IMG/VR virus record: IMGVR_UViG_3300032753_000042
Location: 1 to 51,455 of that record
DNA length: 51,455 nucleotides
Origin: a virus
Strand: one strand, 5' to 3'
The notes below the pieces were generated by a model. That model did no database searches. It was not told where the DNA came from and was given only the letters and a program-made list of their open reading frames with translations. Both the position numbers and the translations under genes were made by a program. Shown piece by piece: positions 4,147-50,208 of the stretch (positions are counted from its first letter, which is position 1; each line of letters begins with the position of its first letter).

Positions 4147-4158
4147 TAGGTCCTACTA
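4144..4158. repeat. Short inverted repeat between tail genes
   Basis: TAGTAGG-T-CCTACTA is a perfect 7-base inverted repeat that includes the double stop of the preceding gene. It could form a small hairpin. No T-tract follows, so it is not a classical terminator. Confidence 0.5.
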
Positions 4159-4169
4159 AGGAATATAAA

Positions 4170-7739: not shown

Positions 7740-9398
7740 ATGACAAATAATTTCAAACGATTCAGTTTCAACACTGACCATTTAGATATCAATCCTGAAG
7801 CACATAATCTTGCTGCCAAACAGAATGACTATGCATTGTTCTTACCGTCAATCAGCATGATTTATGCTAAGATTGTCAGCATGGTTGAATATAACATGCG
7901 TGACAAAATGCCATCAGGATTGCCAAATGGGCTAAAAGATCTAAACTTCTTAGATCCAGCTAACAGCCTGTTTTATTATCCAGTTGCGCTGTATTCAGCT
8001 GGACATGCTATTTTGGATCCAAAAGAAAGTTGGGTACAAGAAAGTATGGTACAACAACGAGATCGCAAGAACACTATAATGGTTGGCGACAGCGGCGGGT
8101 TTCAAGCAGCTACTGGTGTGCTAAAGTATCCTTGGCATCCTAAACCCAAGCAAACTCCAGAAGAGCACATGCGAGACAAGGACGATGTGCGATTGAAGCT
8201 GTTGCGATGGTTGGAAGCAACTGCTGATTACAGCATGGTTCTAGATTGGCCAACTTACGCACTTGTGAAGTATGGTCTTGATCCTGTTACTGGTGTTAGC
8301 TTGCATCCCAGTTTGAAGAGCTTCAAAGATTGTCTAGACGGAAGCATGGAGAATCACCAATTCTTCATCAAACATCGCAAGCCGGGTGCAACTAAATTCC
8401 TCAACGTTCTACAGGGCCGCAATCAAGAAGAAGGCGACATTTGGTGGGAAGCTGCCAAGGACTTACCATTTGAAAGTTGGGCATTCTCCAACGTGCAGGC
8501 TTCCAACTTCAGCATCAACTTGCGTCGCTTGATCATCATGCGAGACCAACATTACCTAGAAGGTCGTGAGTGGCTGCATTATCTCGGTAATGGTAAGATC
8601 AAAGCTGGGTGTGCATTAACAACAGTACAGCGGGCATTGCGCAAGTATGTTGATCCAGAACTAACTATAAGTTTTGATGCAGCAAGTCCGTTTGTTATGA
8701 CCGCCAAGGGGCAGGGGTATTATGGACATGAGCTAAGTTCAACTAACGTTGGCTTCAAAGGCGGTCCTATTGTTGATAAGAAAGAACTCAAAAATGATCC
8801 AACATTATTAAATGATTGGATGGCTGCTAATCTACCTAAAAAATGTGTACCTGTACGTAGCAAGATAGGTGATCGCGTAACTGTGGGAGATATCTGTGTC
8901 AGAGGCGAAGATGATTTAAAGTACAAGAAGGTGTCATTTACCAAAAAAGAAATTGACAGCGGCCAGTGGGCTGCGACCCCAGAAGGTAGAGCAGGCGATC
9001 CATTCAAGTGGAGCAAGGCATATAAAGATTATCTACTGCATCATCTAGAAAATGGAGGTGTCTTTGATTTTGGTAGCAACGTATTTTTAGATGAAAAAAA
9101 GAAGTACGAAGTCAAGTGGCCCAGCAGCATGGATGGATTTAGCTATCTATTGATGATGAACCACAATGTAGAGCTTCATATAAATGCTATTCAATCAGCT
9201 AATATGGCACAAGATATGCCAATAAGCGAGGCAAAGAAATTACTTACACCAGACTTATTGGAATTTAAAGATCTTTGTACAGATATTTTTACATCAGAAA
9301 AGCCGATGGATTTGATAATTCGGCATGAGAAGATGCTGCAACAGATTACTGGCATGGATGCTGACAATTCTGTTAGCATGGATATAGGGGATATTTGA
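7740..9398 (+). CDS. dpdA: DpdA-like 7-deazaguanine DNA transglycosylase
   Basis: 552 residues from the ATG at 7740; the frame can be extended to a TTG at 7701 that overlaps the upstream stop. The TIM-barrel tRNA-guanine transglycosylase pattern is clear: MVGDSGGFQ near residue 117 holds the catalytic Asp, YSMVLDWPTYAL follows, FLNVLQGRN gives the QG strand, and ISFDAASPF near residue 312 probably carries the nucleophilic Asp. The CxCxxC-H zinc site of canonical TGT was not found, as in phage DpdA proteins. These enzymes exchange guanine in DNA for a 7-deazaguanine. FolE, QueE and a QueD-like gene nearby strongly support DNA modification rather than tRNA queuosine. Confidence 0.85.
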   Translation: MTNNFKRFSFNTDHLDINPEAHNLAAKQNDYALFLPSISMIYAKIVSMVEYNMRDKMPSGLPNGLKDLNFLDPANSLFYYPVALYSAGHAILDPKESWVQESMVQQRDRKNTIMVGDSGGFQAATGVLKYPWHPKPKQTPEEHMRDKDDVRLKLLRWLEATADYSMVLDWPTYALVKYGLDPVTGVSLHPSLKSFKDCLDGSMENHQFFIKHRKPGATKFLNVLQGRNQEEGDIWWEAAKDLPFESWAFSNVQASNFSINLRRLIIMRDQHYLEGREWLHYLGNGKIKAGCALTTVQRALRKYVDPELTISFDAASPFVMTAKGQGYYGHELSSTNVGFKGGPIVDKKELKNDPTLLNDWMAANLPKKCVPVRSKIGDRVTVGDICVRGEDDLKYKKVSFTKKEIDSGQWAATPEGRAGDPFKWSKAYKDYLLHHLENGGVFDFGSNVFLDEKKKYEVKWPSSMDGFSYLLMMNHNVELHINAIQSANMAQDMPISEAKKLLTPDLLEFKDLCTDIFTSEKPMDLIIRHEKMLQQITGMDADNSVSMDIGDI

Positions 9399-9943
9399 TG
9401 GAAAGAGATTATGTAGATGGTATACAAGACGATGTCATGATCTTCATAGGTACAGAAGTAGAGCATACTCCTGCACATGGTATGAAGACACTGTTTGTCG
9501 TTGGAGTGGGCGATCCCGATAAACTTGCTCAATTAGCTAAACTTCATGATTGCGAACACATATTCATAGGAGCTAATCAAAGCTTTGATCCAACTGAAGA
9601 GGTTCTCAAAACTGGAAAATCACTTCATGATATTATAGAACCTTGGGATAATATGATATTATACTTGATTGATAAAAACTTTTTAGTTACTTTGGATTTT
9701 GATGTGAGACACGCAAATACAGTATTAGAGATGCGTTGTGCAGAAAAAGATAACTTCATACCGCAAATATCAGTGAAGATACCGTACATCACATTATTCA
9801 ATTATAATGCTATGCTCAAGATTGACGATACTGACTTCAAAGCCAGTAACCCCGGAGTTTGGTGTCATTCTTTGCATAAACTTATGGACAGGTCAGTTTT
9901 TACTGACTGGAGACAGTACGGAAAGGACAAACCAATATGCTAG
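9398..9943 (+). CDS. Unknown protein encoded directly after DpdA
   Basis: 181 residues. The ATG at 9398 shares its A with the DpdA stop (TGATG). Alternating strands and helices are visible: MIFIGTEVEHTPAHGMKTLF, CEHIFIGANQSFDP, FLVTLDFDV, FIPQISVKIPYI. This would fit half of a TIM-like or Rossmann-like barrel, but no active-site motif is recognised. Coupling to dpdA and the position before folE suggest a role in making or handling the modified base. It ends with TAG overlapping the next start, so TAG acts as a real stop here. Confidence 0.65.
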   Translation: MERDYVDGIQDDVMIFIGTEVEHTPAHGMKTLFVVGVGDPDKLAQLAKLHDCEHIFIGANQSFDPTEEVLKTGKSLHDIIEPWDNMILYLIDKNFLVTLDFDVRHANTVLEMRCAEKDNFIPQISVKIPYITLFNYNAMLKIDDTDFKASNPGVWCHSLHKLMDRSVFTDWRQYGKDKPIC

Positions 9944-18170: not shown

Positions 18171-18819
18171 CTGGATCAGTAAACCTGTAACAGATCAAAA
18201 GTTCTCTAAGTTAGTTAATGATCTAGCAGTTTACGATATCAAACAAGGTCCATGGATTGCGGGTGGTTCTGTGCGGAAGCTGTGGCAAGGACTAGATTGG
18301 TCCGGAGAAGATATAGATATATTCTTCAATAATCGTACACAAATTGAACAGTTTCACAATCATATAAAGTATAAATTTATCAAGTCAAAATTTGACCTAC
18401 TTGACGAGTATATACAACCTACAAATCTAAAAAAAGACACTGACATAGATGTTTACGAGACCAGCAATGCAGTATCGTATACTCTTAATAATCCTTCTGA
18501 ATTTGGCGAAGCTGTTAAGATACAGGCTATCCGAAGGCAATTCTACGACTCTGCTGAAGATTTACTCAATGACTTTGATTGGACCGTATGTCAATTTGTA
18601 AGCGACGGAACCACAATGTGGGCTACGCCTTTGGCTGAAAGAGATCTTGCGGCTAAAAATATAGTTTTGTCTCCGACAACTACTCGCACAGTCAAAACAC
18701 TTCGACTTATGAAATATTCAGCATATGGTTTCAATGCTAGCGATGAAATGATGATAGCAGCTTTATCCGGTATTGAAAGTGGTAACGCATCACAGGATAC
18801 AGAAGATGATTACGCCTGA
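18154..18819 (+). CDS. Minimal nucleotidyltransferase-fold protein
   Basis: 221 residues. GPWIAGGSVRKLWQGLDW followed by EDIDIFF fits the polymerase-beta nucleotidyltransferase signature, a GG-S/G-x-R turn then D-x-D metal residues, as in tRNA nucleotidyltransferase heads. A third acidic strand could be DIDVYE (about residue 95) or DFDWTV. The C-terminal part is helical. The substrate is not evident; RNA 3'-end or small-molecule nucleotidylation would fit the fold and the RNA-repair genes elsewhere in the window. Confidence 0.62.
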   Translation: MVVNSNWISKPVTDQKFSKLVNDLAVYDIKQGPWIAGGSVRKLWQGLDWSGEDIDIFFNNRTQIEQFHNHIKYKFIKSKFDLLDEYIQPTNLKKDTDIDVYETSNAVSYTLNNPSEFGEAVKIQAIRRQFYDSAEDLLNDFDWTVCQFVSDGTTMWATPLAERDLAAKNIVLSPTTTRTVKTLRLMKYSAYGFNASDEMMIAALSGIESGNASQDTEDDYA

Positions 18820-19162
18820 TCAACTAGATAGACTTAAAATTGAGAGCAAGCTAAGCGAAAGTTTTTGTATGGCAACAGATACTAACGGCAATCGCTGGGT
18901 GGTATTTGGTAATCATGTAGTTGATTTGGCAACATTCAATGCTATGATGCTTTGGTACTTTGCTAATCACACTAGCTATATGAGATTGATACCAACTCGT
19001 ACAGACTACCAAGAGACACTTAGATCTTTAAATCCCAATATAAAACGAGACAACTATCATTTTTTAAATGAGCTATATCAAAAGTTTGTTGCTATAGCTA
19101 AAACTAGATCTAAATTAGAACTTATTGAAAGATTTAAAGAATGTACCACAGGACTAAACTAG
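18806..19162 (+). CDS. Hypothetical protein
   Basis: 118 residues from the ATG at 18806, which overlaps the previous stop by 14 bases. The N half is beta-like (GNRWVVFGNHVVDLATFNAM) and the C half is helical and basic (YQKFVAIAKTRSKLELIERF). It ends on TAG. No family is recognised. Confidence 0.58.
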   Translation: MITPDQLDRLKIESKLSESFCMATDTNGNRWVVFGNHVVDLATFNAMMLWYFANHTSYMRLIPTRTDYQETLRSLNPNIKRDNYHFLNELYQKFVAIAKTRSKLELIERFKECTTGLN

Positions 19163-19519: not shown

Positions 19520-19901
19520 ACTACCAAACTTACCTCAACATTTTGAAAACACTAAAGAATTTGCGGAATTCATAAGACCGTATTTTGACGAAGATCATAA
19601 TAATACTGTATGGAAAGATGTACTCATACCTGATGCCATACACAAGTTTATGTTCTCTAACAAAGGTTGGCGACTAACACCTACGGGCGCCGACATGTTA
19701 ATGCAACATTACAAATCATATCAATCTACTCATGAGGATAACTGTATTATTACAGGTAAACTATTGATTCAAATGAACAGGTTGATAAATGGTCCCTGGA
19801 TACTTCGCAACCGTACTGTAACAATTTGGAATAGCCAAATACATTTTGAACTGCAATTGGTTGGCGGTAAACTTTTAGATTTGATAGATTTCAAATGTTA
19901 A
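19500..19901 (+). CDS. Hypothetical protein
   Basis: 133 residues with LPDAIHKFMF-like and GWRLTPTGADMLMQHYKSYQ segments. Small phage proteins with this WRLTxxG(A/x)xxLxxxY pattern recur in T4-like genomes, but the role is unknown to me. The last 11 bases overlap the end of the radical SAM gene on the other strand. Confidence 0.6.
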   Translation: MKIQKTELPNLPQHFENTKEFAEFIRPYFDEDHNNTVWKDVLIPDAIHKFMFSNKGWRLTPTGADMLMQHYKSYQSTHEDNCIITGKLLIQMNRLINGPWILRNRTVTIWNSQIHFELQLVGGKLLDLIDFKC

Positions 19902-20998
19902 TCATAGAATACATGCGAGCAAATACAGGATCTAGATCAAATATGTTTGTGCCTCTTGCTTGATCATATGCAGCAGTTCTTTCAAACATTTTCTTCATTA
20001 GAATAGCATCATATTCCATAGTTTTATCGTTGATAAGATTTACTATTTGATCTGCTAATTTATTGTTTTTGTTTTCTAACCAAATGATCTTTTCATTGCG
20101 TATTTCAGGAGGTATAGATTTTATAGATAGATCGCTTGGAGATACAACATGACTTAACCCTATCGCATCTCTATTTCCAAACCAATCAAACCAATCTTCT
20201 ATCATAGCCAAATTATATGACATCATGGTACACAATATACCATATGGTATTCCTAAATCATCCAATCTTTTCATATTGCGTTCAATAGTAGACCAATGTC
20301 CATTAGTACGTATATACTCATAACATTTTCCGGTTGCATCTACGCTGATTGTGTAGGAAATTTTTTTGAACTTCTTAACTCGACTTATCCATTTGTCATT
20401 TATATTGGAGCCATTGGTAGTTAACTGTAATTCAACATCGGTATTGGCTTCATATAACTTATCTAAAAAATCAAATACAGTTTGACTGATACTGGGTTCT
20501 CCGCCAAGTATGCTAACAACCTTTAATTGTTTGAGATCTATTGAATTTAAAATGTCATGATTGTTTGAAATTTGGCTATCTAGTTTATCCCAAATCATCA
20601 AATTGGGATTATCTATCAACTCTTTCATTATTAACGAGGACGATTGCGACGAACACATCCTGCATTTGAAATTGCAAATTATGTCAGGTCTATAATCTAA
20701 AATTTTGAACGAAGTACCAGTTTCTATATTCAATGATTCTAAATCAGCAAAACTATTTTCAAACTGTCTGTATGATGGTATATTTGATCGTTCATTAATA
20801 ACACATGAAACACAAGTTTTAGGTAATTCAGTACTCATCATTTGTTTTTTGATTGATTTCAGATAGTCGCTGTCAATGTATTCTTGAACGGTACCTGAGA
20901 ACATATCACCAAACCATTCGCAACATGGTTTAATTTTGTTGCCTGAGTGATAGCTCAACCCTTGCCAAGGTTGCTGCACACAATGGGTTAGTGTTCAT
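19891..20998 (-). CDS. Radical SAM protein of the twitch type, start probably frameshifted
   Basis: About 362 residues are readable from a GTG at 20979. IICNFKCRMCSSQ is the CxxxCxxC cluster motif, VSILGGEPSIS is the GGE strand and LQLTTNGSNI follows. An N-terminal PCCEWFG and a CVSC segment match the accessory cluster layout of twitch proteins, which usually begin M-x-x-x-P-x-C-x-x-PW. Here MNTNPLC is encoded at 20998 in a different frame. It would join QQPWQGL perfectly if one more TG dinucleotide were present near 20980. The natural start therefore appears lost by a two-base contraction. The target is unknown; such enzymes often modify peptides or sugars. It lies downstream of a kinase-like gene and a homing endonuclease. 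Confidence 0.78.
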
Positions 20999-21001
20999 AT
21001 A

Positions 21002-21627
21002 TTATTCCATGCTGCCGGGATCATAAACTGGATCTACCAATACAGGGACATTGCCGCGTAGCATTATGTTCCCCTCGTGAAGATCAAACGCGTCGCCTGC
21101 TGCATCCATATCAACCAATATTTTCAAAACACCTGGATAATTATTTTTCAACCAGATGCGGTTACTTTTCGAAAGGTCATCAAGACTATCATATATGTTC
21201 GATGTGAGTTTAGAAAGATGTTTTAATTTAGGATCACCAGCAACTGTCCAAGGTTTTAATGGTTCCATTCTAACTGCAAAAGTTTCATCGTTTATGCGCA
21301 ATATATTGCCTTTTATCTTGGGAACATTTGGGTTGTTTTGATTTTTAATTGCATAACGCAAATAAGTTAGATAGGAAGGATCCCTGTTGAATATCTTGAA
21401 TAACCACGGATATCCAGGTTTCTCATATACTGTACCAAAACTACCACTCCACTACCAACTTTTACGAATCCATGCTTTACTAATTCACTAGTAAAATTTT
21501 TCATCATGCGATTTCTTGTGGCCCAAAATGCTCCCTCTGTATCGCCATATTCTGACGGATCAAAGGTGGTTTTGGCCTTTTGATATATGGGATTTTCCCT
21601 GTAGCCTATTAATTCACTTATCAACAT
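21002..21627 (-). pseudogene. Kinase-like protein gene broken by a 2-base frameshift
   Basis: Two frames join into one protein of about 210 residues. The first (from ATG at 21627) runs MLISELIGYRENPIYQK to HGFVKVGSG. The frame then changes near 21445-21455, where an extra GT sits in a GTGG-rich stretch. The other frame reads GSFGTVYEKPGYPWLFKIF and onwards to DAFDLHEGNIMLR and VLVDPVYD. This is a glycine loop with GSFGTVYE, an FKI lysine strand, an HxxN catalytic loop and a DP metal site, as in small phage kinase-like proteins. Without the shift the gene would be intact. It could be a real mutation, programmed shift, or an assembly error. Confidence 0.75.
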
Positions 21628-21637
21628 AGTAAATTAT

Positions 21638-23329
21638 TTATAACAATTTTTCCCAGACAGCATTACCACAATCCCATATTCTATCCCACCCGTGATTGCG
21701 CATATTTTCCCATTCGCTTAAATTTGGATCAAAATTATCTAACTTTTTAACCAAATAGCGCTTTTGAAATCCGCTGCGATGATAGACCTTTCCCGCTTTT
21801 ACATACCAATAGCCCGGACCTGTATTTTTTACATGACTAAATCCTGCTAAGCCATATGATAAACCCGGCCCCCATCTTAGATCAGAATAAGTTATTATCT
21901 TTTTTCCAAAATGATCAAGACCAACAGCGTTGATCAATTTACTTACACCCCCTGGTATTACTATGCCGCAACGAGTGCTTGATCTAATTATTTCTAGGTC
22001 TGCTGTCTTGTCATATCTAGAATGACCTATGCTCATGCACATATAAATTACACCATCTTGAGATGCCAATGCATAATGCTGGTTAGCAGGTGCTGCACCT
22101 GAGAGATGATTTTGGTTATGAAAAGTAGCCGCTTGATCGTTGGAAATCTTTGTAACAACCAATTTCCTAGCACCGATCCTATTGCTGTTGACGCCTAATA
22201 GATTGTCTAACCTACTCTTAACAATGTCCAACTTATCTGCAATTTCAGTGTCCCAGATGTGTACCAATCGTATGCCAAGTTCAGCACACTTGCGAGTTTT
22301 TTCCAAATGGTAGTCATATGGCTTATTCCCTCCTAGTTCGCCGTGCCAATAAACGCCATCTATCTCAATAGCCAAATTTAACTCAGGTAACACAATATCC
22401 AATTCCATTCCATTCAAGACTTTGCGATCATTTATACATATTTCTCCGTAGTATTTGCTACGTAAATGATCTAATATAAATTGGTGATGAGAACTGATAG
22501 CATGCTGCACAGGAACGAGACCAAGTTTGTTGAATCTGACACTTAATTGGCTGGTTCCCATCCCCAATTTCTTAGCAATATAACACAACGGATATTGCGC
22601 ATTTTGTTCTTGTAACCATTGACGATTGTAACTAAGATCAATCATGTCCATACTCATATGCAATTGAGCAGGATCATATCTACCATATCTATCCAAATTG
22701 GTACGGTAACGGCGATCTAATATTTCTTGCAATCTCTCTGCATATGCTGTACGGGTGTTTTCTGTAGTTTTGGCAACTATCTCAGGTACATGCATAGGAT
22801 TAGCAACACCATATCTATCCAACAGGGTTTTTTTGATTTTGTCTTGAACGTCGGGCACACTCAATGTGCTTCGATGTCCATATAATGATAAATTAGTAGA
22901 TTCTATCTTGGCCCTAACAATTGGACTAGCTGATGGAACTTCTACACCATACTTCGATAAACTGGTTGCTCGAGCCTTGCGATGATAATCATCAGTTTGA
23001 AAATATGACCTGTTTCCGTAAATGCGCTCGGTACTGCTAGCTTTTTTCTGTTTGGTATTCGAGTCTCTTGCTGCACAAGCTTTGCTGCAAAATCGTCTAT
23101 AACAACCGTCTGTTCGGTCAAATTGAGTTGGAGAACCGCAGTTTTCACAAGACGGGATGTAAAATACCCTGTTGCGTAAATGCCATATTCTTACGTAAGT
23201 GGGAGTATTACATGGTAAAAATGTAGTTAGATCCAAAAGCTCCGTTGGGCACCATTTTGATAACGCTTTGGTATTTTTAGTGTTTTTCAATTGATCATAT
23301 TGCTCAAGTAATTTGTCTATAATATCCAT
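21638..23329 (-). CDS. Homing endonuclease, Zn-finger plus Vsr-like nuclease
   Basis: 563 residues from the ATG at 23329, which follows GAGGTAAATGT; longer reading to 23449 would cover the opposite promoter. The N-terminal part has a treble-clef zinc finger (PSCENCGSPTQF, FCSKACAA). Then come several YG repeat segments (SLYGHRSTLSVPDVQDKIKK, LLDRYGVANPM), and a Vsr/PD-(D/E)xK core: LNGMELDIVLPELNLAIEID, GVYWHGELGG, KTRKCAELGIRLVHIWDTEI. A C-terminal domain of about 190 residues is probably the specificity module. This family is common as free-standing homing endonucleases in phages. It runs divergently from the MoxR gene. Confidence 0.85.
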   Translation of the reverse strand: MDIIDKLLEQYDQLKNTKNTKALSKWCPTELLDLTTFLPCNTPTYVRIWHLRNRVFYIPSCENCGSPTQFDRTDGCYRRFCSKACAARDSNTKQKKASSTERIYGNRSYFQTDDYHRKARATSLSKYGVEVPSASPIVRAKIESTNLSLYGHRSTLSVPDVQDKIKKTLLDRYGVANPMHVPEIVAKTTENTRTAYAERLQEILDRRYRTNLDRYGRYDPAQLHMSMDMIDLSYNRQWLQEQNAQYPLCYIAKKLGMGTSQLSVRFNKLGLVPVQHAISSHHQFILDHLRSKYYGEICINDRKVLNGMELDIVLPELNLAIEIDGVYWHGELGGNKPYDYHLEKTRKCAELGIRLVHIWDTEIADKLDIVKSRLDNLLGVNSNRIGARKLVVTKISNDQAATFHNQNHLSGAAPANQHYALASQDGVIYMCMSIGHSRYDKTADLEIIRSSTRCGIVIPGGVSKLINAVGLDHFGKKIITYSDLRWGPGLSYGLAGFSHVKNTGPGYWYVKAGKVYHRSGFQKRYLVKKLDNFDPNLSEWENMRNHGWDRIWDCGNAVWEKLL

Positions 23330-23378
23330 ACATTTACCTCTTTTATCATTATATCTAATTTTTCCGCAAAATAACAGG

Positions 23379-23406
23379 TTGACAGTAAAGTTATAGGTGC
23401 TATTAT
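23379..23406 (+). promoter_or_regulatory. Extended -10 promoter for the MoxR gene
   Basis: TTGACA at 23379-23384, 16-base spacer ending in TGC, and TATTAT at 23401-23406. AGGAG precedes the ATG at 23450. Confidence 0.75.
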
Positions 23407-23449
23407 CACATCGTAACGACACAAACGTTAACTTAGGAGAAACACACAA

Positions 23450-24766: not shown

Positions 24767-26020
24767 ATGTCAACACCAGTCACCAAGAAGATCAGTCAGG
24801 CACGCCTCAAGTTGCTGTTCTCTAACCCGTTCTTTGGAACGCTTGCAATGCAGCTCAAGTTAGTGGATGCCACTGACGCTGGTTGGTGTCCAACTGCTGC
24901 GGTTGACGGACGCAATATCTTCTACAACCGAGATTTTATATCCAAGCTGGATGTTGACGAGACGGTGTTCGTTCTCTGTCATGAAATTCTTCACGTTGCG
25001 CTGGATCACTTTGGTCGTCGATCTCATCGTGATCCCCAGTGGTGGAACATGGCCAATGATTATATCATCAATGGCATGCTCACTACCGACAAGATTGGCA
25101 AGATGCCTACCATGCGAGTTCCGGATCCCAATGCTGCAGGACAGGAGACGTCGCAGCGTGTTGGCTTGTATGATGCCAAGTACCTGGGTTGGACGTCCGA
25201 GGCAGTGTATGACGATCTTGAGAAGCGCAAGGTCAAGAAGGAGCTCACGCTGGACGTTCACCTTGAGATGGGCGACGACAAGAAGGACGGCAAGGGCAAG
25301 GACAGTTCCAAGGGCATTCCAATTGAAGTCAGCAGCGAGGAGCTCAAGAAGATCCGCGAGGAAATGAAGAACAAGATTCTGCAGGCTGCTCAGGCTGCTG
25401 CGGGCAAGCTTCCCGGTAGCATGAAGCGTATGCTCGAGGATCTCATTGAACCCAAGATCAACTGGCGTGACCTGCTACAGCAGAACATCCAGAGCTGCAT
25501 CACTGATGACTTCACTTGGTTGCGTCCAAATCGCAAGCATATGTATTCGGGCATCTTCCTTCCCACGCTGGACAAGGATGAGACCATTGACATTCAGATT
25601 GCTATTGACATGAGCGGTTCTATTAGCGATGCTATGGCCAAGGACTTCCTCGGTGAGGTTGCTGGCATCATGGACAGCTATCATGACTTCAAGATTGGCA
25701 TTCTTTGTTTTGATACCAGGGTCTATAACTACAAGGAGTTCACCAAGGACACTGCAGACGAGCTCATGAACTATCAGTGCATGGGTGGCGGTGGTACTGA
25801 CTTCAATGCGTTCTGGAATTATTGGATTGAAAACCAGATCGAACCCAAGAAGGCTGTGGTGTTCACTGACGGGTATCCGTTTGGTGAGTGGGGTCCAGAC
25901 ACTTATGCAGATACTCTTTGGATCATCACTGAAGGTGCCAAGACTCGCGTTAAGCCACCGTTTGGACAGTATGCGTATTACGATCACAACACTGGTATTG
26001 AAGAGGTAGATGCAGCGTAA
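24767..26020 (+). CDS. Putative metallopeptidase-VWA protein, partner of MoxR
   Basis: 417 residues with two parts. The N-terminal domain of about 150 residues has TVFVLCHEILHVALDHFGRR, an HExxH zinc-protease motif, with a possible third ligand region at WNMANDYIINGM (DUF2201-type). A charged linker of Lys and Asp follows. The C-terminal VWA domain has IDIQIAIDMSGSISDAMAKD (the DxSGS metal site) and CMGGGGTDFNAFW. In known systems the AAA+ and VWA proteins act together. The added protease motif suggests regulated cleavage, or a fold that only resembles a protease. Like moxR, the gene is GC-rich relative to its neighbours. Confidence 0.85.
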   Translation: MSTPVTKKISQARLKLLFSNPFFGTLAMQLKLVDATDAGWCPTAAVDGRNIFYNRDFISKLDVDETVFVLCHEILHVALDHFGRRSHRDPQWWNMANDYIINGMLTTDKIGKMPTMRVPDPNAAGQETSQRVGLYDAKYLGWTSEAVYDDLEKRKVKKELTLDVHLEMGDDKKDGKGKDSSKGIPIEVSSEELKKIREEMKNKILQAAQAAAGKLPGSMKRMLEDLIEPKINWRDLLQQNIQSCITDDFTWLRPNRKHMYSGIFLPTLDKDETIDIQIAIDMSGSISDAMAKDFLGEVAGIMDSYHDFKIGILCFDTRVYNYKEFTKDTADELMNYQCMGGGGTDFNAFWNYWIENQIEPKKAVVFTDGYPFGEWGPDTYADTLWIITEGAKTRVKPPFGQYAYYDHNTGIEEVDAA

Positions 26021-28470: not shown

Positions 28471-29652
28471 ATGAAGGAAAACATCAAAATACCAGCCAAG
28501 CATTATGTTGGACTAGTCAAACGCAAAAACAGCAAGTTGCCCATTGGATTTATGACTCCTTGGGGAGAAGATACCGCTGCAAAAAATCGTATGGCGTCTG
28601 TAGATACTTAGGCCAAAGGCACTCAAATACCCAGCCAAGTGATTGACAACATCCCTCTTAGCGGATTCAAGCTGGGAGACAGCATTAGATCTTCAGGATA
28701 CGGTGGGTACGACAAGTGGCGTATTGAAGATCCTCGTGGATTTGAATTGGAAATTACCAGCGGCAATTTGGCACAGTTGATCAGTGTTGGCATGATTGAT
28801 CGAGGCGAAATCATAGATCAATGCGTTTGGGCACGACTGGGCAAAGATAATGTGCTGCTCAGTACCAGTACAGATGTATACAAACAGGCTGTGCAGAATA
28901 CTATTGTGGCCAACACCAAAGCCAATTGGCGTGATGTTAAGCCAGGCGACGGTGTTGTATTGCAAAACAACCTTCGAGGCGTTTGGCTGGGTAAGATGTA
29001 TAGAATCTGCCGCACTTATAATCGAAATCACTCTTCTGCTCAGGGAACCAACGAGATTGCGATCAGTAGTAATGTAGTACATGTGATACATGTACATAAA
29101 ACATCACAGGACCATTCCAACAAGACTGAAGAGTTGCATCTCATTGCTAACCCTAAGCTCAGTAGCATTGAACCTGCCAACAAGAATCTAACCGCAGCAC
29201 AAGCAGAACTATTGGCTAACCAGCTGCGATCTTTGAGTCATGTGGACATTATAGACAACACATATTCAACTGTATTGTCGTTTGTATACGGAAAACCATC
29301 TGCTGGTTGTGTACTCAATCGTGTGCCAATTGACATACCAGACGAATCTACACTGACAGACAGTACCAAATACCGGTCACCAGAACTGTTTGTTGAAACT
29401 ACAGACGGTCGATTTGGTGAAGTTTTTTCTTCTGGTTATAATAATATTCACCTCCGCTCATTCAACAACTCACAGTTTACAGCCAATCATCTCTGTCGCA
29501 GTTTGGTTATATCCAAACATTACTCCTATCGAAATCATTATACGGAGGATGCTAATCCTTACACGTTTAATTCTGATGATCAATTCTTCAATGTTGAAAT
29601 CGCCGTAAAGTCTCCAACTGGTAACGAAATCAAGTGTCTGCTACGGCGATAA
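28471..29652 (+). CDS. Unknown protein interrupted by one in-frame TAG
   Basis: 394 codons with a TAG at codon 47 (28609-28611). The first 46 residues (HYVGLVKRKNSKLPIGFMTP, AAKNRMASVDT) and the rest (AKGTQIPSQVIDN, GGYDKWRIEDPRGFELEITS) are in the same frame and read as one protein. The domain with WRIEDPRGFELEI and FELEITSGNLAQL is known from conserved phage proteins of similar architecture. After the TAG the first possible start is a GTG at 28639 with no ribosome-binding site. Either the codon is read through or suppressed, or the gene has been inactivated. The last bases lie 10 bases from an antisense GIY-YIG gene. Confidence 0.7.
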
Positions 29653-29662
29653 AATAACGACA

Positions 29663-30352
29663 TTACCTTTTCATTTTATTTGCTAATTGAGTTGCAACTT
29701 TTCTAGCATATATTTCTGCTCGTTTTTCTGGAGTATATGCAAGTCTCTTTGCAACCCTTTTAGCAATAATTTCTTCTTTTTCTTTTTGCGATTTATTTTT
29801 CCAAGATATACTTTTCTCAATACTGGCTTTGTTCTTTTTATCAGCTGACATTTTAGACCATGTTTCTCGTCTTTTAGTTTTTTCTTCTTCGGTTTGAATT
29901 TTAATAGGCACTGTTGCTCTTGCTCTAGACATTTTTTCTTTTGTCTCTGGAGATCTTTTCAAACCTTTTAATGATTTAGATATTTTCTTTCTAACATCGT
30001 CTGGTGTTTTATCGTTAGCTCTTGAAAATATATGTTTGCCAAATACAGGATCTCTATAATGTTTATTGATACATAATGGATCTGTTATATGTTCTTTAAT
30101 CAATTGTTGTTCTATTTTATAACATTCTTTATAATCGTCATTGATTGCTATAACCTCAACAATAAAAGATTCTATACCGTATTGTGCGATTATGTTATGT
30201 ATTTCTTTAGAAGACGTGAAATAACGAACCCATAAATCATCTGCTATAGTTCTATTATATTTGTCATGTCTCATTCGATAACCAAAGTAATAAACCTCAG
30301 TAACTTTATGTGTTACTTTGTAAACATAAGGTGATATTAAATGTAAATACAT
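29663..30352 (-). CDS. GIY-YIG homing endonuclease with NUMOD-type tail
   Basis: 229 residues. The N domain has YVYKVTHKVTEVYYFGYRMR (the GIY and YIG strands), WVRYFTSSKEIHNIIAQYGI, and EVIAINDDYKECYKIEQQLI with the conserved Glu. The C half has ISKSLKGLKRSPETKEKMSR, a NUMOD3-like DNA-binding repeat, and Lys/Arg-rich helices. It lies antisense between the amber-interrupted gene and the AAA ATPase. A late-type promoter and a hairpin leader precede it. Confidence 0.88.
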   Translation of the reverse strand: MYLHLISPYVYKVTHKVTEVYYFGYRMRHDKYNRTIADDLWVRYFTSSKEIHNIIAQYGIESFIVEVIAINDDYKECYKIEQQLIKEHITDPLCINKHYRDPVFGKHIFSRANDKTPDDVRKKISKSLKGLKRSPETKEKMSRARATVPIKIQTEEEKTKRRETWSKMSADKKNKASIEKSISWKNKSQKEKEEIIAKRVAKRLAYTPEKRAEIYARKVATQLANKMKR

Positions 30353-33334: not shown

Positions 33335-34090
33335 GTGAGTGGTATCATAAAACAATTACAAGGGTACAGCGGCAGCACGGTTCTGTTGATGCAGGACCGT
33401 AGCCGTACCTTTGTACGCAAGGTTGGCAACGTAACTCGCAATCAAGAACGCTTGCGGGCACTGTCAGACAGCAACATTGCCATGCCCAAGATCATAGCTA
33501 CAGGCGACAATCACTATGACATGGAATATATACCTCACGACGATATGATCACTTGGTTGCTGCACAATCCCATAGATCAATTTGTAAACTGGATTCTAGA
33601 TTGTATTGCTAAACTAAAAAGAAACAGTGTAGCACAAGAATGGCAAACAGTATATCGCGCAAGATTGGCAGTACCAGCACTAGCACCCTATTGGCCACAA
33701 TTGCCATTTACAGCAGAAGAACTGATAGCACAGTTACCTCACAGTATACCCGCTAGCAGCTATCACGGTGACTTGACTATGGACAATTGCATACATGGAT
33801 TTGATGGACGATTCTATCTAATAGACCCTATCACTAGCGATTATGCCAGCTGGGTTTTTGATCTAGCCAAACTGATGCAAGATCTAGAATGCGGTTGGTT
33901 CATACGCAATAAAGATGCAATGCTGCAGGGCAAGTTATGGTCAATCAAATCTGCAATTGTAGCAGAACATCCAATCTCAGATAACAAGAACCTCATTATA
34001 CTGATGCTGCTAAGAGTGCTGCCATATACCAATAACGATCAAGATCGCAACTTTATTATTAAGGAAATCAACAGGCTATGTATATTATAA
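33335..34090 (+). CDS. APH/choline-kinase-like small-molecule kinase
   Basis: 251 residues with a GTG start. The kinase fold of the aminoglycoside-phosphotransferase type is indicated by RTFVRKVGN (ATP-site Lys), HYDMEYIPHDDMI, SYHGDLTMDNCIH (HGDLxxxN catalytic loop) and FYLIDPITSDYASWVFDLAK (metal-binding DP). LicA choline kinases and similar enzymes share this pattern. The next gene starts inside this one and encodes a nucleotidyltransferase, which suggests that the product is phosphorylated and then activated by a nucleotide. A weak promoter (TTGATA, ATAAAC) places the start site near the GTG, so the mRNA may be leaderless. Confidence 0.75.
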   Translation: MSGIIKQLQGYSGSTVLLMQDRSRTFVRKVGNVTRNQERLRALSDSNIAMPKIIATGDNHYDMEYIPHDDMITWLLHNPIDQFVNWILDCIAKLKRNSVAQEWQTVYRARLAVPALAPYWPQLPFTAEELIAQLPHSIPASSYHGDLTMDNCIHGFDGRFYLIDPITSDYASWVFDLAKLMQDLECGWFIRNKDAMLQGKLWSIKSAIVAEHPISDNKNLIILMLLRVLPYTNNDQDRNFIIKEINRLCIL

Positions 34091-35121
34091 TACCGTGTGC
34101 TGGTCAAAGTACCAGATTCCCAAATATGCGCCCAAAGTATTTGCTGTGCGATTATCAAGGGCGCAGCATGTTACAACTAGCAGCCAAACCCTATTTGGAT
34201 GATCATACAGTATATGCAATTGTGCTCAAGGAGCACGACGAACAGTATCATTCAACAGATCAAATAAACAGTATGTTTGGCAACAGAGTTAAAGTTGTGG
34301 TATTGCCAGAACCAACTGCAGGTCCAGCAGATACCATTTATCAAGCTCTAGAGCATTTAAATTTACATAGCTCAGACGGTTTCTTGGTTAGAGACTGCGA
34401 CAGTTTATTGGAGCATGATCCTCTATCTCCCGGTAATAAAATATTTGTAGACACGTTGGACAACCATCCCACGTTGCGCATGCCTGGTAACAAGAGCTAC
34501 CTTACTGTCAACAATTGGGGTATAGTTGGCAACATAGTTGAAAAGAAGATAATCAGCGACACATTTTGTGTTGGTGGGTATCAATTTGAATGTATAGCAG
34601 AATACAAAGACGCTTACAACGATCTCAAGAACAGCAAGCTAGGTGAGATTTATATGAGCTCTATTGTGAGCTACATGATAACCAAACATGCCATATTCAA
34701 CACCGAACAGGTCAAGAGCTTTGTTGATCTAGGCACTGCAGAGGATTGGGCACAATATAACAACAAACCAACACTGTTTGTAGACATTGATGGCACTATT
34801 GTTAAGAATCAAGCACTCTACGGCAAGAACAATTACAAGACTAAACCAACAGCATTAGAGAACAATGTGAGAGCCCTGCTCAATGCCAAAGCTCGCGGGG
34901 CCCAGATCATATTCACAACATCTCGTCCAAGTTCTAGTAGAACCGAAACACAAGCACTGTTAGACCAATTGGGATTTGGCGACTGCCAATTATTGATGGA
35001 CTTGCATCATGCCCGCCGCATATTGATCAACGATCACGCTGCTACCAATCCGTGGCCCAGCGCTGTAGCTATCAACATCAAGCGCAACGACGACAGTTTG
35101 GATCAAATGCTGCGATATTAA
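34078..35121 (+). CDS. Nucleotidyltransferase (GT-A) fused to a HAD phosphatase
   Basis: 347 residues. The N-terminal 235 residues match sugar- or choline-phosphate nucleotidyltransferases: MYIIIPCAGQSTRFPNMRPK is the GxGxRF-type loop with its Lys, EPTAGPADTIYQAL follows, and FLVRDCDSLL is the metal-binding Asp strand. The C-terminal 110 residues are a HAD domain with FVDIDGTIVKNQ (nucleophile DxDGT), IIFTTSRPSSS and LINDHAATN. It overlaps the APH-like kinase gene by 13 bases. The combination resembles LicA/LicC and Campylobacter capsule modification genes that make CDP-linked groups, but the substrate is not known. Confidence 0.78.
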   Translation: MYIIIPCAGQSTRFPNMRPKYLLCDYQGRSMLQLAAKPYLDDHTVYAIVLKEHDEQYHSTDQINSMFGNRVKVVVLPEPTAGPADTIYQALEHLNLHSSDGFLVRDCDSLLEHDPLSPGNKIFVDTLDNHPTLRMPGNKSYLTVNNWGIVGNIVEKKIISDTFCVGGYQFECIAEYKDAYNDLKNSKLGEIYMSSIVSYMITKHAIFNTEQVKSFVDLGTAEDWAQYNNKPTLFVDIDGTIVKNQALYGKNNYKTKPTALENNVRALLNAKARGAQIIFTTSRPSSSRTETQALLDQLGFGDCQLLMDLHHARRILINDHAATNPWPSAVAINIKRNDDSLDQMLRY

Positions 35122-35219: not shown

Positions 35220-35816
35220 ATGCACTATAAGTTTCCGGAAATTCGGCATTTGGATGACGTGCGCCCTGCGATTGAGGGTCGCGATGAATTTGTGGTTGCA
35301 GAACGCGGCCGATTTACCATTGTTTGTTATGTAGTAGCAATGAGTGACACGTTTCCGCCAGTGGTAACTGTTAACGATGCAATTCGACGAGAATGTCGAG
35401 GTATTATCTTTGATAGCGCAACAGGAAGAATATTGCGTAGACCTCTTGCCAAGTGGTTCAACATCTTTGAGAAAGAAGAGACTCAACTTGATAAGTTAGA
35501 TTTTTCGCTGCCACATAAGGTTTATACCAAATATGACGGCTCTATGATTTCGCCTTTTGAAGACGGGTACAGATCTGGTGTCATAAGGTGGGGTACAAAA
35601 ATGGGCATTTCAGAAGTTGCACTTCAAGCTGAAGCTTTTGTAAAAAACCATCCGCAATATCAAAATTTCGCTAAATGGTGTATTTCAAATGATCTTACAC
35701 CAATATTCGAGTACACTGCACCTAATAATAGGATTGTTCTATCTTATGATAAGCCCATGTTGACATTGTTAACAGTGCGTCATATGGTAACAGGCGAACA
35801 TTTTAATCTGCTTTGA
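35220..35816 (+). CDS. RNA ligase 1-like protein, N-terminal part of a split gene
   Basis: 198 residues. RECRGIIFDSATGRILRRPL and KWFNIFEKEE precede KVYTKYDGSMISPF, in which the Lys of KYDGS is the nucleotidyl-accepting residue (motif I). LTPIFEYTAPNNRIVLSYDK carries motif III/IIIa. The protein stops after LLTVRHMVTGEHFNLL. Motifs IV and V are missing, but they are encoded at 36675 on the same strand. A GIY-YIG gene on the other strand lies between the two halves, and its 3' end overlaps this stop by 14 bases. The intact relative is T4 Rnl1, which joins broken tRNA and other RNA ends. Confidence 0.85.
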   Translation: MHYKFPEIRHLDDVRPAIEGRDEFVVAERGRFTIVCYVVAMSDTFPPVVTVNDAIRRECRGIIFDSATGRILRRPLAKWFNIFEKEETQLDKLDFSLPHKVYTKYDGSMISPFEDGYRSGVIRWGTKMGISEVALQAEAFVKNHPQYQNFAKWCISNDLTPIFEYTAPNNRIVLSYDKPMLTLLTVRHMVTGEHFNLL

Positions 35817-36549
35817 ATTTGCAATTATTCCCGTGCCACCGGGAATAATTGCCACTTTTAAACAAATTATTACAATATTGGCATAAAAATTTTGGCGCAG
35901 TTGATTTAGTTTTAGATATTTTCATTCGTTGGTCATAATTCATTAGACCACACTTATATCCTTTTTTAGATTTAGATATATTAGATCTGTGTGTATCTGA
36001 TATTGGACCTTTTTTAATTCCTGTAGTTGATTGGGATATTTTCTTTTTTGTTTCTTCACTATGCGGAATCGAGTGTTTATTTTTATTAGAAAGGGATATT
36101 TTCTTTTTTGTTTCTTCGTTTCGTGGTCCTAATAATTTTCCTTTTTTAAGTTTTGATATTTTTTGTCTAGTTTCGTCTGAATGTCTATAATGCTTCCTAC
36201 TCTTATTAAGTTTTTCTTGATGTTCTGATGTTCTATTTTTAGCATATAATGATAATTTATGTTTTGTAGTGTCGCTTCTTATGAACCCTCCCGGACCTTC
36301 TCCGCCGTTAGATAAATTACGTAATATTCCTGTTCCTATATCTTTGCAACCAAATAGTTTAATATATGCCTGTTCCAATTTAAATGCATCATCTTCGAGT
36401 AATCCAGTTTGATAGAATATAATTTTAGATTTATCTTTTGGTACAGGTACCGAATGTTTACCATAAATTCGTTTTCCTTTACCTTTTCCTATGTAATAAG
36501 GAGTGTTGTCTGTTTGTCGTAAATATGCGTAAACATAGTAAATATGCAT
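35803..36549 (-). CDS. GIY-YIG homing endonuclease inside the split RNA ligase
   Basis: 248 residues. YYVYAYLRQTDNTPYYIGKG is the canonical GIY-YIG pair. LEQAYIKLFG holds the Glu and LRNLSNGGEGPGG the Asn. Four or five NUMOD3-type repeats with HSEETKKKISQ patterns form the DNA-binding tail, which ends in a zinc finger (CQYCNNLFKSGNYSRWH). It sits antisense in the gap between the two ligase halves, which fits homing insertion into a conserved gene. It has the same leader element as the GIY-YIG gene at 30352. Confidence 0.92.
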   Translation of the reverse strand: MHIYYVYAYLRQTDNTPYYIGKGKGKRIYGKHSVPVPKDKSKIIFYQTGLLEDDAFKLEQAYIKLFGCKDIGTGILRNLSNGGEGPGGFIRSDTTKHKLSLYAKNRTSEHQEKLNKSRKHYRHSDETRQKISKLKKGKLLGPRNEETKKKISLSNKNKHSIPHSEETKKKISQSTTGIKKGPISDTHRSNISKSKKGYKCGLMNYDQRMKISKTKSTAPKFLCQYCNNLFKSGNYSRWHGNNCKFKAD

Positions 36550-36575
36550 GCTGTATGCTCCTTCAAAGCTATAGA

Positions 36576-36617
36576 GTAGTTGGGAACGCTAATTCCGCGA
36601 ACTACGCTTTATTTATT
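36576..36617 (-). promoter_or_regulatory. Late-type promoter and leader hairpin of the GIY-YIG gene
   Basis: On the reverse strand AATAAATA (36610-36617) is followed after 4 bases by a hairpin with GTAGTT/AACTAC outside and GGAA/TTCC inside. The copy at 30381-30411 has GGGA/TCCC at the inner stem, so both sides have changed together. The AGGAGCA ribosome-binding site comes next. Confidence 0.72.
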
Positions 36618-36626
36618 AAATTTTGA

Positions 36627-36654
36627 TTGACTAATCTTAGTATGATGCTAGAGT
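36627..36654 (+). promoter_or_regulatory. Extended -10 promoter for the RNA ligase C part
   Basis: TTGACT at 36627-36632, 16-base spacer ending in TGATGC, and TAGAGT at 36649-36654. ATAGGAGATAGCA precedes the ATG at 36675. The second ligase half thus has complete expression signals of its own. Confidence 0.72.
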
Positions 36655-36674
36655 ATGCATTATAGGAGATAGCA

Positions 36675-37280
36675 ATGACTCTTCAAATTCAACTTTTGGA
36701 CAAGATTAATTTATATAATATTCCTGTTGCAAAGGTTCATGATTCAGTTAAAGACCCTGTTGAGTTTATTAACTATGTTAGAGGTCTCAAGAATGTAGAA
36801 GGATTTGTTATCGCATGGGATTCTGGTTATCGAGTTAAGACCAAAGCTGACGAGTATCTACGTTTTCATAAAACTAAAGATGGACTGTCACAAGAAAAAA
36901 ATGTGATTGACCTGTTGGTAAACGATAAGGTTGATGACGCAAAGTCCTACATGATGGACGATGACCGACACCGTGTTGAACAGTTTGAAGACCAGTTCTG
37001 GCATGGCTTCAACTACACCGTTGATCAGCTTGAGCAGGATCTCAAGCGGGCGCTGTCTGTGACCCGCGGTGACCGCAAGACGTTTGCTCTAGGCATGGGC
37101 AAGGACATGCAGCCTATTGCTCGTCAGGTTATGTTCTCCTGCTGGGATGGAGCACGCGATGTGCGCACCGAGCTGCTCAGCGTGATCAAGAAGAACATTG
37201 GTACTGCAACCAAGGTTGACGGTGTACGCCATCTTTGGGGTGGTCATCGGTGGAGCTACCACTTTGAAGGAGATGCATGA
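36675..37280 (+). CDS. RNA ligase 1-like protein, C-terminal part of a split gene
   Basis: 201 residues. NVEGFVIAWDSGYRVKTKAD is motif IV and the start of motif V, and EYLRFHKTKDGLSQEKNVID continues as in T4 Rnl1-type ligases. The C-terminal helical region (HRVEQFEDQFWHGFNYTVDQ) matches the specificity domain. Together with the part at 35220 the length is about 399 residues, near that of T4 Rnl1 (374). This half has its own promoter, ribosome-binding site and ATG, so a two-subunit ligase is possible. The last third is richer in GC than the N part. Confidence 0.83.
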   Translation: MTLQIQLLDKINLYNIPVAKVHDSVKDPVEFINYVRGLKNVEGFVIAWDSGYRVKTKADEYLRFHKTKDGLSQEKNVIDLLVNDKVDDAKSYMMDDDRHRVEQFEDQFWHGFNYTVDQLEQDLKRALSVTRGDRKTFALGMGKDMQPIARQVMFSCWDGARDVRTELLSVIKKNIGTATKVDGVRHLWGGHRWSYHFEGDA

Positions 37281-43586: not shown

Positions 43587-44417
43587 GTGAAGATATGTCA
43601 GTGGTCAGACCTACATCTAGAATGGCAGAAATCTGCACCCACATGGCCAAACTCAGGAGCAGACGTTCTGATATTGGGTGGTGATATCTGTCTTGCAGAA
43701 CATATTTGGCGCAATCCATCTGACATCAAACCCGGTGTCATACAAAAGGACGATCGCATACATGATGCACGTCGTTACAGAGAATTCTTCCGCCATGTGA
43801 ATGACCAATTCAAACACGTGATTTATGTTGCTGGAAACCACGAACACTACGAGGGTCGTTGGGACAGGACCATACAGGTTCTTACAGAAGAGGCTGCACG
43901 CTATCCCAACATACACTTTCTTGAGCAAGGCAAGGTTGTGATAGACGGCGTTGTGTTCCTGGGTGCATCATTATGGACCAACATGAATCGCGAAGATCCA
44001 ATCACCATGATGAGTGTTCGAGATCTAATGAACGATTATAAAGCCGTTGCAGACTTCTCAACTGGCAGTTGGGACAGGTTGAGACCTCATACCACTGTGG
44101 CTAAACATCGAGAGACACTGCAGTGGTTGCGCTTGATGCTAAACGAGGATAAGAGCAAAACTGTTGTGGTCACACACTATGCTCCGAGCTATCAGAGTAT
44201 ACATGAGACCTACAAGGGTCAATGGATAACCAATGGTGCATTTGCAAGTGATCTAGATGAGTTTATCATAGAGCATCCGCACATCGCCCTGTGGACACAT
44301 GGTCATGTTCATAATAGATTTGATTACATGATAGACTCTACCAGGGTAGTCTGTAATCCTCATGGATATCCGGGCGAGAACACTGAATTTGATCCTAACC
44401 TAATAATAGAGGTATGA
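43587..44417 (+). CDS. Calcineurin-like metallophosphoesterase
   Basis: 276 residues with a GTG start after GGAG. All five motifs are present: KICQWSDLHLEW (DxH), VLILGGDICL (GD), VIYVAGNHEHYE (GNHE), VVVTHYAPS (VxTHxxP) and LWTHGHVHNRFD (GHxH). These enzymes hydrolyse phosphodiesters or phosphomonoesters on nucleotides, RNA ends or signalling molecules. With RNA ligases and nucleotidyltransferases nearby, an RNA-end processing role is a reasonable guess but is not shown. Confidence 0.9.
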   Translation: MKICQWSDLHLEWQKSAPTWPNSGADVLILGGDICLAEHIWRNPSDIKPGVIQKDDRIHDARRYREFFRHVNDQFKHVIYVAGNHEHYEGRWDRTIQVLTEEAARYPNIHFLEQGKVVIDGVVFLGASLWTNMNREDPITMMSVRDLMNDYKAVADFSTGSWDRLRPHTTVAKHRETLQWLRLMLNEDKSKTVVVTHYAPSYQSIHETYKGQWITNGAFASDLDEFIIEHPHIALWTHGHVHNRFDYMIDSTRVVCNPHGYPGENTEFDPNLIIEV

Positions 44418-45329: not shown

Positions 45330-45351
45330 ACGCTTCTAATTGGAGATTGTC

Positions 45352-45714
45352 ATGAAAGTCACTGTGAAAAATCCAATGTATGCTGAACGCAATCGCTATG
45401 CGTTTTATATTCCCGAGTTTCTTACGTATGAAGGTGATCGTGTTCCTGCTCCAAAATGGGCGCCAGATGATACCGTCTGCCTAACTACCGGCAATCTCAA
45501 TTGGCCAATTAGAATGCTAGATTCAGCCTCAATTACAAGCATTGACGATAAAACTGTCGTTTCTGCAAAGGTTGAGTCCAAAAACAAGACTGTTACTGTA
45601 GAAGGCAGCAAAGGGCAGAAGTATGTAGTAACCATAACACCCGAAGGCAAGACATGTACTTGTCCTGGGTTTGGTTTCCGCCATAGCTGCAAACATGTAC
45701 TAGCAGCCAATTGA
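45352..45714 (+). CDS. SWIM zinc-finger protein
   Basis: 120 residues from the ATG at 45352. TCTCPGFGFRHSCKHVLAA is the SWIM motif CxC-x(n)-CxH at the C terminus. The N-terminal 100 residues are beta-rich (AFYIPEFLTYEGDRVP, VTVEGSKGQKYVVTITPEG). SWIM domains bind DNA or proteins, and the short phage versions have no assigned role. Confidence 0.82.
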   Translation: MKVTVKNPMYAERNRYAFYIPEFLTYEGDRVPAPKWAPDDTVCLTTGNLNWPIRMLDSASITSIDDKTVVSAKVESKNKTVTVEGSKGQKYVVTITPEGKTCTCPGFGFRHSCKHVLAAN

Positions 45715-45797: not shown

Positions 45798-46820
45798 ATG
45801 GCACAGTTATTAACCAGAGACCAATTTCGCGAAGGTGTCTTTGCGCGCGACAGTCACAAGTGCGTGTTCTGTAAAAATCCTGCTGTGGATGCTCATCACA
45901 TACTAGAACGCAGACTTTGGACTGACGGAGGATATTATCTAGAAAACGGTGCCAGTGTATGCTAGCAACATCACCTCGAATGTGAAATGACTACAATATC
46001 TGTAGAGGCTGTGAGAGAAGCTTGTGGTATACGCAAGAAGGTTATACCAGAACACCTCTATGAGGATGTAGTTTATGACAAATGGGGCAACGTAATACTC
46101 CCAAATGGTCAACGCATGAAAGGCGAACTGTTTGGCGATGCTAGCGTACAGAAAATATTGTCACAGGGAGGTGTACTAGACCAATTTGTAAAATACTACA
46201 AATATCCTCGAACCTATCATTTACCTTGGTCGCCTGGCGTAAATGATGACGATAAAGTCATACACGATGTTGCTGTATTTGACAATTGTGAGATAGTGGT
46301 TACTGAAAAGATGGACGGCGAAAACTGTACCATGTATTTGGATTATATACATGCTCGCAGCATTGATGGACGCAATCATTAGAGTCGAGATTGGGTTAAA
46401 AATTTCCACAGCAAGATACAGCATGACATACCCGAAGGCTATAGAATCTGCGGAGAAAACCTATATGCCAAACACAGTATTGCATACAATGAACTTGGTA
46501 GCTACTTTTACGGATTTAGCATGTGGAATGAAGATACCTGCTTGAGTTGGGACGAAACTTTGGAATGGTTTGACCTAATTGGCATACAGCATGTGAATGT
46601 CCTATATAGAGGTATGTTCGATGAGAAGTTAGTTCGCAACCTACAGAAATCATTAGATTTTTCTAAGCAAGAAGGCTATGTTTTACGCAAGGTTGGATCA
46701 TTTAAGATGAATCAATTTAAGAACAGTGTTGGTAAGTTTGTGAGGAAGGATCATGTTCAGACCAAACAGCATTGGATGTATGACAGGATAGAACAGAATC
46801 GTATTAGGACCTTGACATGA
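45798..46820 (+). CDS. HNH-like plus RNA ligase fusion with two in-frame TAG codons
   Basis: 341 codons in one frame from the ATG at 45798, with TAG at codon 56 (45963-45965) and codon 195 (46380-46382). The first 65 residues are a zinc/HNH-like domain (CVFCKNPAVDAHHILERRLW, ENGASVC, then HHLECEMTT). The ligase core follows: VVTEKMDGENCTMY with the nucleotidyl Lys (motif I), HARSIDGRNH and SRDWVKNFH (motif Ia region), RICGENLYAKHSIAY (motif III), EGYVLRK (motif IV) and KFVRKDH (motif V). Sequence homology runs through both TAG sites without a gap. The TAGs fall at positions where related proteins vary, so Gln or another residue would be tolerated. It could be read through, suppressed or inactivated. 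Confidence 0.85.
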
Positions 46821-49317: not shown

Positions 49318-50208
49318 ATGATCTTGGACAACCTATACAAGCAGAAGCTAATCCATCCTCCCAAGTGGCTTCTAGCCAACACGATTTATCTTGCACGAGT
49401 AGGTAGTGAAAGCTACGGTGCAAAAATTGATAGCAGCGATGTAGATATTCAAGGTATTTGCATTCCAAAAAAAGATGATATTTTCCCCCATTTGCGAGGA
49501 GAAATTTTAGGATTTGGCACGCAGAAACAGAGATTTGATGTTTGGCAAGAACATCATATCGAAGATGTTTCTAACTCTAAAGAGTACGATTTTTCGGTAT
49601 ATTCTATTATTAAATTTTTCCAGCTTGCAATGGAAAATAATCCTAATATCTTGGATGTTATTTCGGTGCCAACTAATTGTATTGTTCATGCATCTGCAAT
49701 TGGTCAAATGATTCGAGATAATCGTAAGGTTTTCTATCATGCAGGATGTTTTCATAAGTTTAGGGGCTACGCATTTTCACAATTTTCTAAATTAGAAACA
49801 GGAGCAAATAAAAGCAATCCAAAACGGGCAGAAAATATTGCAAAATTTGGTTATGATACCAAATTTTTAATGCATGTTGTTAGATTGGCTCTGGAGTGCG
49901 AACAATTATTGTTAACAGGTGAACTTGTTCTTAACAAAGATAGTCAAACTTTACTCAGAATTCGCCGAGGTGAATGGTCTTTGGATGAAGGTAAGAAATG
50001 GTGGACTGCTAAAGAGCGTGACTTAGAATCTTTGTACGCAAATTGCAAAATTCTGCCGCACGTTCCCAACGAACCTGCTATTAAACAATTGTTGTTAGAT
50101 TGTTTAGAGCACCATTTTGGCTCATTAAGCTCTGCTATTAAATTACCAACAAAGGACGAACAATTGCTAAATGATCTTAAAAATCTCGTAGAAAAATATT
50201 CTCAGTAA
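49318..50208 (+). CDS. RlaP-type nucleotidyltransferase (RNA repair-associated)
   Basis: 296 residues. IYLARVGSESYGAKIDSSDV and DIQGICIP form the GSxxYG...SDxD signature of the polymerase-beta-like family (PF10127, RlaP). RlaP proteins are commonly linked to RNA-repair gene sets. The C half is helical (DTKFLMHVVRLALECEQLLL). It has a strong ribosome-binding site and its 3' end overlaps an antisense homing endonuclease by 32 bases. The target is probably RNA ends or tRNA but has not been shown. Confidence 0.82.
   Translation: MILDNLYKQKLIHPPKWLLANTIYLARVGSESYGAKIDSSDVDIQGICIPKKDDIFPHLRGEILGFGTQKQRFDVWQEHHIEDVSNSKEYDFSVYSIIKFFQLAMENNPNILDVISVPTNCIVHASAIGQMIRDNRKVFYHAGCFHKFRGYAFSQFSKLETGANKSNPKRAENIAKFGYDTKFLMHVVRLALECEQLLLTGELVLNKDSQTLLRIRRGEWSLDEGKKWWTAKERDLESLYANCKILPHVPNEPAIKQLLLDCLEHHFGSLSSAIKLPTKDEQLLNDLKNLVEKYSQ

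Follow-up and report, generated by a model that had tools for sequence, protein, structure and literature searches.

In-frame amber codons in the HNH-fused RNA ligase gene of a probable jumbo-phage fragment, and their possible suppression

Introduction

A gene for an HNH-fused RNA ligase in the IMG/VR record IMGVR_UViG_3300032753_000042 is interrupted by two in-frame TAG codons, which raises the question of whether the full-length enzyme is still made by decoding of TAG or whether the gene has been lost. The record is linear and 51,455 bases long; this whole stretch is referred to here as the window. It is most likely a fragment of a jumbo phage, about one tenth the size of its kin, because relatives of its ATPase gene, mostly 65-86% identical, are found in dozens of virus records including jumbo phages of 452,799 and 518,643 bases, and because several window proteins match those of cultured jumbo phages. 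Amber- or opal-suppressor tRNAs without a known target occur in several jumbo phages that use the standard code. If the TAGs are read through, the window would offer a concrete and testable pair of targets for such orphan tRNAs; if they are not, the case is one of ordinary gene loss.

Results and Discussion

The interrupted gene and its predicted product

The ligase gene (45798-46820, plus strand) is a single frame of 340 codons followed by TGA. Translation gave two internal stops, TAG at codon 56 (45963-45965) and TAG at codon 195 (46380-46382), and no others, confirming the frame of 341 codons, final stop included, described in an earlier note on this DNA. Residues 3-337 match PHROG 24030 "RNA ligase" with E=1e-141, a full-length match to the fused family that supports the frame. 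The HNH/zinc region (45822-45989, plus strand; residues ~9-64) keeps all of the family-invariant residues C22, C25, H33, H34, N50, C55 and H59, with the first TAG placed between C55 and H58/H59 of the zinc site. The nucleotidyltransferase domain (46197-46808, plus strand; residues ~134-337) holds the K171-x-D173-G174 motif, E220, E292-G293 and K313-x-V315-R316, every invariant residue of which is retained, and the second TAG falls in its H-x-SRDW segment. PF09414 matches residues 165-313 (E=4e-32), the ligase profile matches a Naegleria RNA ligase, and the N-terminal part matches the HNH of IscB (E=0.005). An AlphaFold2 model with a mean pLDDT of 93 has a fold like that of ATP-dependent RNA ligases; in this model the TAG codons open two predicted helices (56-63 and 195-210). 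Judged from its sequence, the gene encodes an HNH-fused Rnl2-type RNA ligase, with enzymatic activity predicted.

HNH-Rnl2 fusions are already known from jumbo phages (PMC7824862). The window protein shares their domain order and full-length match and is ~51-65% identical to phage proteins such as those of Salicola SCTP-2, CcrBL9 and ME3, whereas its two TAGs set it apart from all 80 viral homologues compared, none of which has an in-frame stop. The small protein encoded upstream of the ligase (45340-45714) has a C-terminal Cys/His cluster and a weak match to a zinc-finger PHROG.

Conservation of the ligase frame

The ligase motifs had been called intact, and the alignment agrees: 85 columns reach a conservation of 95% or more, and the window protein violates none of them. 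No frameshift, TAA or TGA inside the frame, mixture of stop types or lost conserved residue was seen, and the branch is not accelerated, its root-to-tip distance ranking 43rd of 46, among the shortest. The standard picture of a decaying pseudogene, with frameshifts, mixed stops, lost residues and faster evolution, does not fit the ligase, although a very recent inactivation may. Under the neutral expectation, a change in a conserved column is favored over a new stop by 735:192 (3.8-fold), and the chance that a second stop arises before any conserved-column change is ~21%, which is mildly surprising. Codons 56 and 195 lie at the 75th and 80th entropy percentiles, that is, at variable sites, with a joint chance of ~0.055-0.08. 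The window was selected since a reader had spotted these two TAGs, and the statistics carry that bias. Taken singly, each statistical argument for retained selection is weak; the arguments from conservation, stop position and rate agree in direction, to modest effect.

The main rival to read-through, which we regard as a real but somewhat doubtful possibility, is recent nonsense inactivation, in which point mutations that happened to create TAG disabled two accessory genes, with decay still invisible. Two ligase stops accompanied by no violated conserved column, no frameshift, no TAA or TGA and no rate acceleration speak against it. In its favor, codons a single ordinary step away from TAG are present in homologues: at codon 56 many have GAG-Glu (E37, G17, S9, A8, P3, Q2 and others; n=80), at codon 195 TGG-Trp is found (P39, E13, W8, A6 and others; n=80), and TGG occupies a third site in the kin, described below. 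The earlier note had named such varied residues, as one of several observations, as grounds for doubting that TAG is decoded; the variation is there, and the set as a whole was found only in part. Its proposal that glutamine would fit the TAG sites is not supported, Gln being present in two of 80 homologues at codon 56 and in none at codon 195, with Trp at the third site.

A third TAG and a screen of related records

One in-frame TAG had escaped the earlier note. It lies at 28609-28611 (plus strand), codon 47 of a gene (28471-29652, plus strand; 393 codons and TAA) for a conserved jumbo-phage protein of unassigned role. The corresponding loci of the kin are uninterrupted, with TGG-Trp at the TAG site in eight of nine and the Trp of the ninth shifted by an alignment gap; Trp also stands there in XacN1, Phosso and a Vibrio phage, and Tyr in PA5oct. 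The kin of this gene were missed with patterns drawn from it alone and recovered with its alignment.

In-frame stops were finally screened in 28 related records, comprising 529,472 homology-covered codons, of which the window supplied 10,482 (2%). Codon-usage gene calls were used in place of those of earlier screens, which had been dominated by antisense shadow ORFs. Only three clean in-frame TAGs were found, and every one is in the window, two in the ligase gene and one in gene 28471-29652; no further in-frame stop was seen in the homology-covered genes of the window. The only other convincing single stop, in the kin phages G024 and G025, is a TGA in place of a conserved Trp, the residual entries being doubtful ORFs or a decayed HNH-like gene in G031. 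That the second gene hit again carries TAG only, with in-frame stops otherwise nearly absent from the kin, counts against inactivation. TAG makes up 0.385 of nonsense targets, giving ~0.06 for three stops that are all TAG. On the side of inactivation, a truly decayed gene with several stops does exist among the kin: the HNH-like gene of G031 (18723-18866, minus strand), with TAA and TGA stops, is an example of real decay in a kin phage.

The same inventory bears on a sequencing or assembly error in the metagenome contig. The phage is represented by this single contig, searches with the ligase, metallophosphoesterase and ATPase having found no second or near-identical record; an error would nevertheless have had to produce three substitutions, all to TAG, in two separate genes, while sparing the other covered genes of the window from stops, and we consider this the least probable of the explanations weighed here.

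TAG remains a terminator

Seven of the counted window genes end in TAG. For a control gene (9395-9943, plus strand), this is truly the end, as its kin homologues stop at the same place. TAG accounts for 11% of gene stops in the window versus 5-14% in kin that have a tRNA with the anticodon CUA, and its use is therefore not lowered. Backup TAA or TGA codons close behind TAG terminators are absent in the window, in G032 and in G010, and no in-frame TAG was found in the covered genes of kin with a CUA tRNA. The coding bases amount to 47,274 with the standard code and 47,202 with TAG as sense; two of ~90 genes have an in-frame TAG, and the tail fibre gene is intact.

Code-15 recoding of the whole phage was rejected, since TAG still terminates genes and coding density is no higher with TAG as a sense codon. 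The window shares with the Lak and crAss-like phages of code 15, in which TAG encodes Gln, the presence of in-frame TAG and of a CUA tRNA in the lineage. It differs from them in keeping its TAG terminators, in having only two genes with in-frame TAG and in giving no indication of Gln; code-15 phages have many such genes, typically structural or lysis genes, a pattern that the window lacks. The fact that TAG still ends other genes points to sparse, gene-level suppression rather than code reassignment, if suppression occurs. A working TAG terminator is equally a point for inactivation.

CUA tRNAs in the kin and in other jumbo phages

A search for a suppressor tRNA had been proposed in the earlier note; it was negative for the window, an incomplete fragment of 51 kb in which no tRNA gene of any kind was found, and positive for its kin. 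Among the long kin, the four with the best coverage (318-608 kb) have one or two tRNAs each with the anticodon CUA. ARAGORN placed such tRNAs at 129519-129593 in G032 and at 138544-138617 in G041, as tandem pairs in G010/G011 (G010:321051-321206) and in G042 (4091-4256), and also found one in G030. G035, of which 260 of 358 kb were read, gave none, nor did the shorter kin fragments, most of which are without any tRNA. Comparison of the kin CUA tRNAs with other phage tRNAs allowed no amino acid to be assigned.

Similar tRNAs are known from other jumbo phages. XacN1 has a tandem pair annotated as tRNA-Sup (36047-36205), and CBB has one CTA tRNA; RsoM2USA carries a CUA suppressor tRNA (PMC8504454) and Atu_ph07 a UCA suppressor tRNA (PMC6102473). 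The authors of XacN1 extended 18 amber stops by read-through in silico and did not find a target (PMC5852040). The orphan CUA tRNAs of XacN1 and RsoM2USA come from the same wider group as those of the window kin, with the tandem arrangement common to XacN1, G010 and G042. The two cases differ otherwise: XacN1 has CUA tRNAs and no target found for them, whereas the window has two would-be target genes and a CUA tRNA known from kin only. Possession of such a tRNA by the window phage itself may be presumed through this kinship only. In the tandem pairs of G042, G010 and XacN1, three diverged phages, one member ends in A73 and the other in G73.

Sparse amber suppression as the preferred reading

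We propose, at about even confidence, that sparse amber suppression keeps the ligase gene and gene 28471-29652 productive. In this reading the two genes belong to a jumbo-phage lineage that keeps the standard code and carries amber-suppressor tRNAs with the anticodon CUA; some or all of the time, a CUA tRNA, either encoded by the phage outside the fragment or supplied by the host, would decode the three internal TAGs; and, with full-length protein still being made, both genes would stay under selection. The suggestion in the earlier note that TAG is read as an amino acid gains from the lack of decay beyond the TAGs, from the second TAG-bearing gene and from the CUA tRNAs of the kin, and survives without its choice of Gln. 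Against suppression count the lack of a tRNA in the window, its TAG terminators with no backup stops, and the kin that have the CUA tRNA yet no in-frame TAG in covered genes. In addition, the three sites disagree on the residue that would be inserted, homologues having mostly Glu or Gly at codon 56, Pro or Glu at codon 195 and a nearly invariant Trp at the third site. If read-through does take place, the window phage would stand partway from the standard code to complete code 15, with a few genes relying on a suppressor tRNA, and suppressor tRNAs would be linked to phage RNA repair.

The RNA-repair neighborhood

Several further genes of the window, all on the plus strand, match RNA-repair and related functions. 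A protein combining NTP-transferase and HAD/PNKP-phosphatase-like parts (34078-35121) is probably involved in RNA-end healing. Sequence matches identify the N-terminal (35220-35816) and C-terminal (36675-37280) halves of a T4 Rnl1-like RNA ligase, a calcineurin-like metallophosphoesterase (43587-44417) and an RNA ligase-associated RlaP nucleotidyltransferase (49318-50208). With this second, Rnl1-type ligase present, the phage may be able to do without the HNH ligase, and the HNH ligase is absent from most of the kin records searched, many of which are fragments; both observations favor inactivation.

The repair set also bears on an amber-gated switch, by which the ligase would be made only when CUA tRNA is sufficient or release factor 1 limiting. 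Membership of the ligase in a set with Rnl1, RlaP and the HAD/PNKP-like protein would suit such control, serial TAGs would be expected to sharpen the response, and an in-frame TGA is found in the PNKP-type phosphatase gene of a kin phage. A conserved switch is contradicted by the absence of TAG from all 80 ligase homologues, and the codon contexts of the TAGs share nothing obvious. We consider the switch improbable, and the timing by infection stage put forward in the earlier note found no support. A more specific possibility, tentative and rather unlikely, is that the orphan CUA tRNAs of standard-code jumbo phages have the amber codons of an RNA-repair enzyme as a functional target, forming a sparse gene-specific layer of amber suppression that allows or times synthesis of the HNH-Rnl2 ligase.

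The TGA-bearing phosphatase gene lies at G025:21511-21957 (L149:1511-1957), with the same gene in G024, and encodes a PNKP-type HAD phosphatase (PF25109, E=4e-34); its TGA takes the place of a Trp that seven matches share, which makes it a further RNA-repair gene of the clade with a stop inside.

On the opposite strand, a NUMOD3-containing homing endonuclease gene (35803-36549) separates the two halves of the Rnl1-like ligase (35220-37280). Rnl1 is split in G010 too and intact in G032. An Rfam search of the window at gathering scores returned no match, and thus no group I intron is seen at the split. Genes for several homing or HNH endonucleases, together with a radical SAM gene, also crowd 19891-23449 (minus strand), 24767-26020 (plus strand) and 29663-30352 (minus strand).
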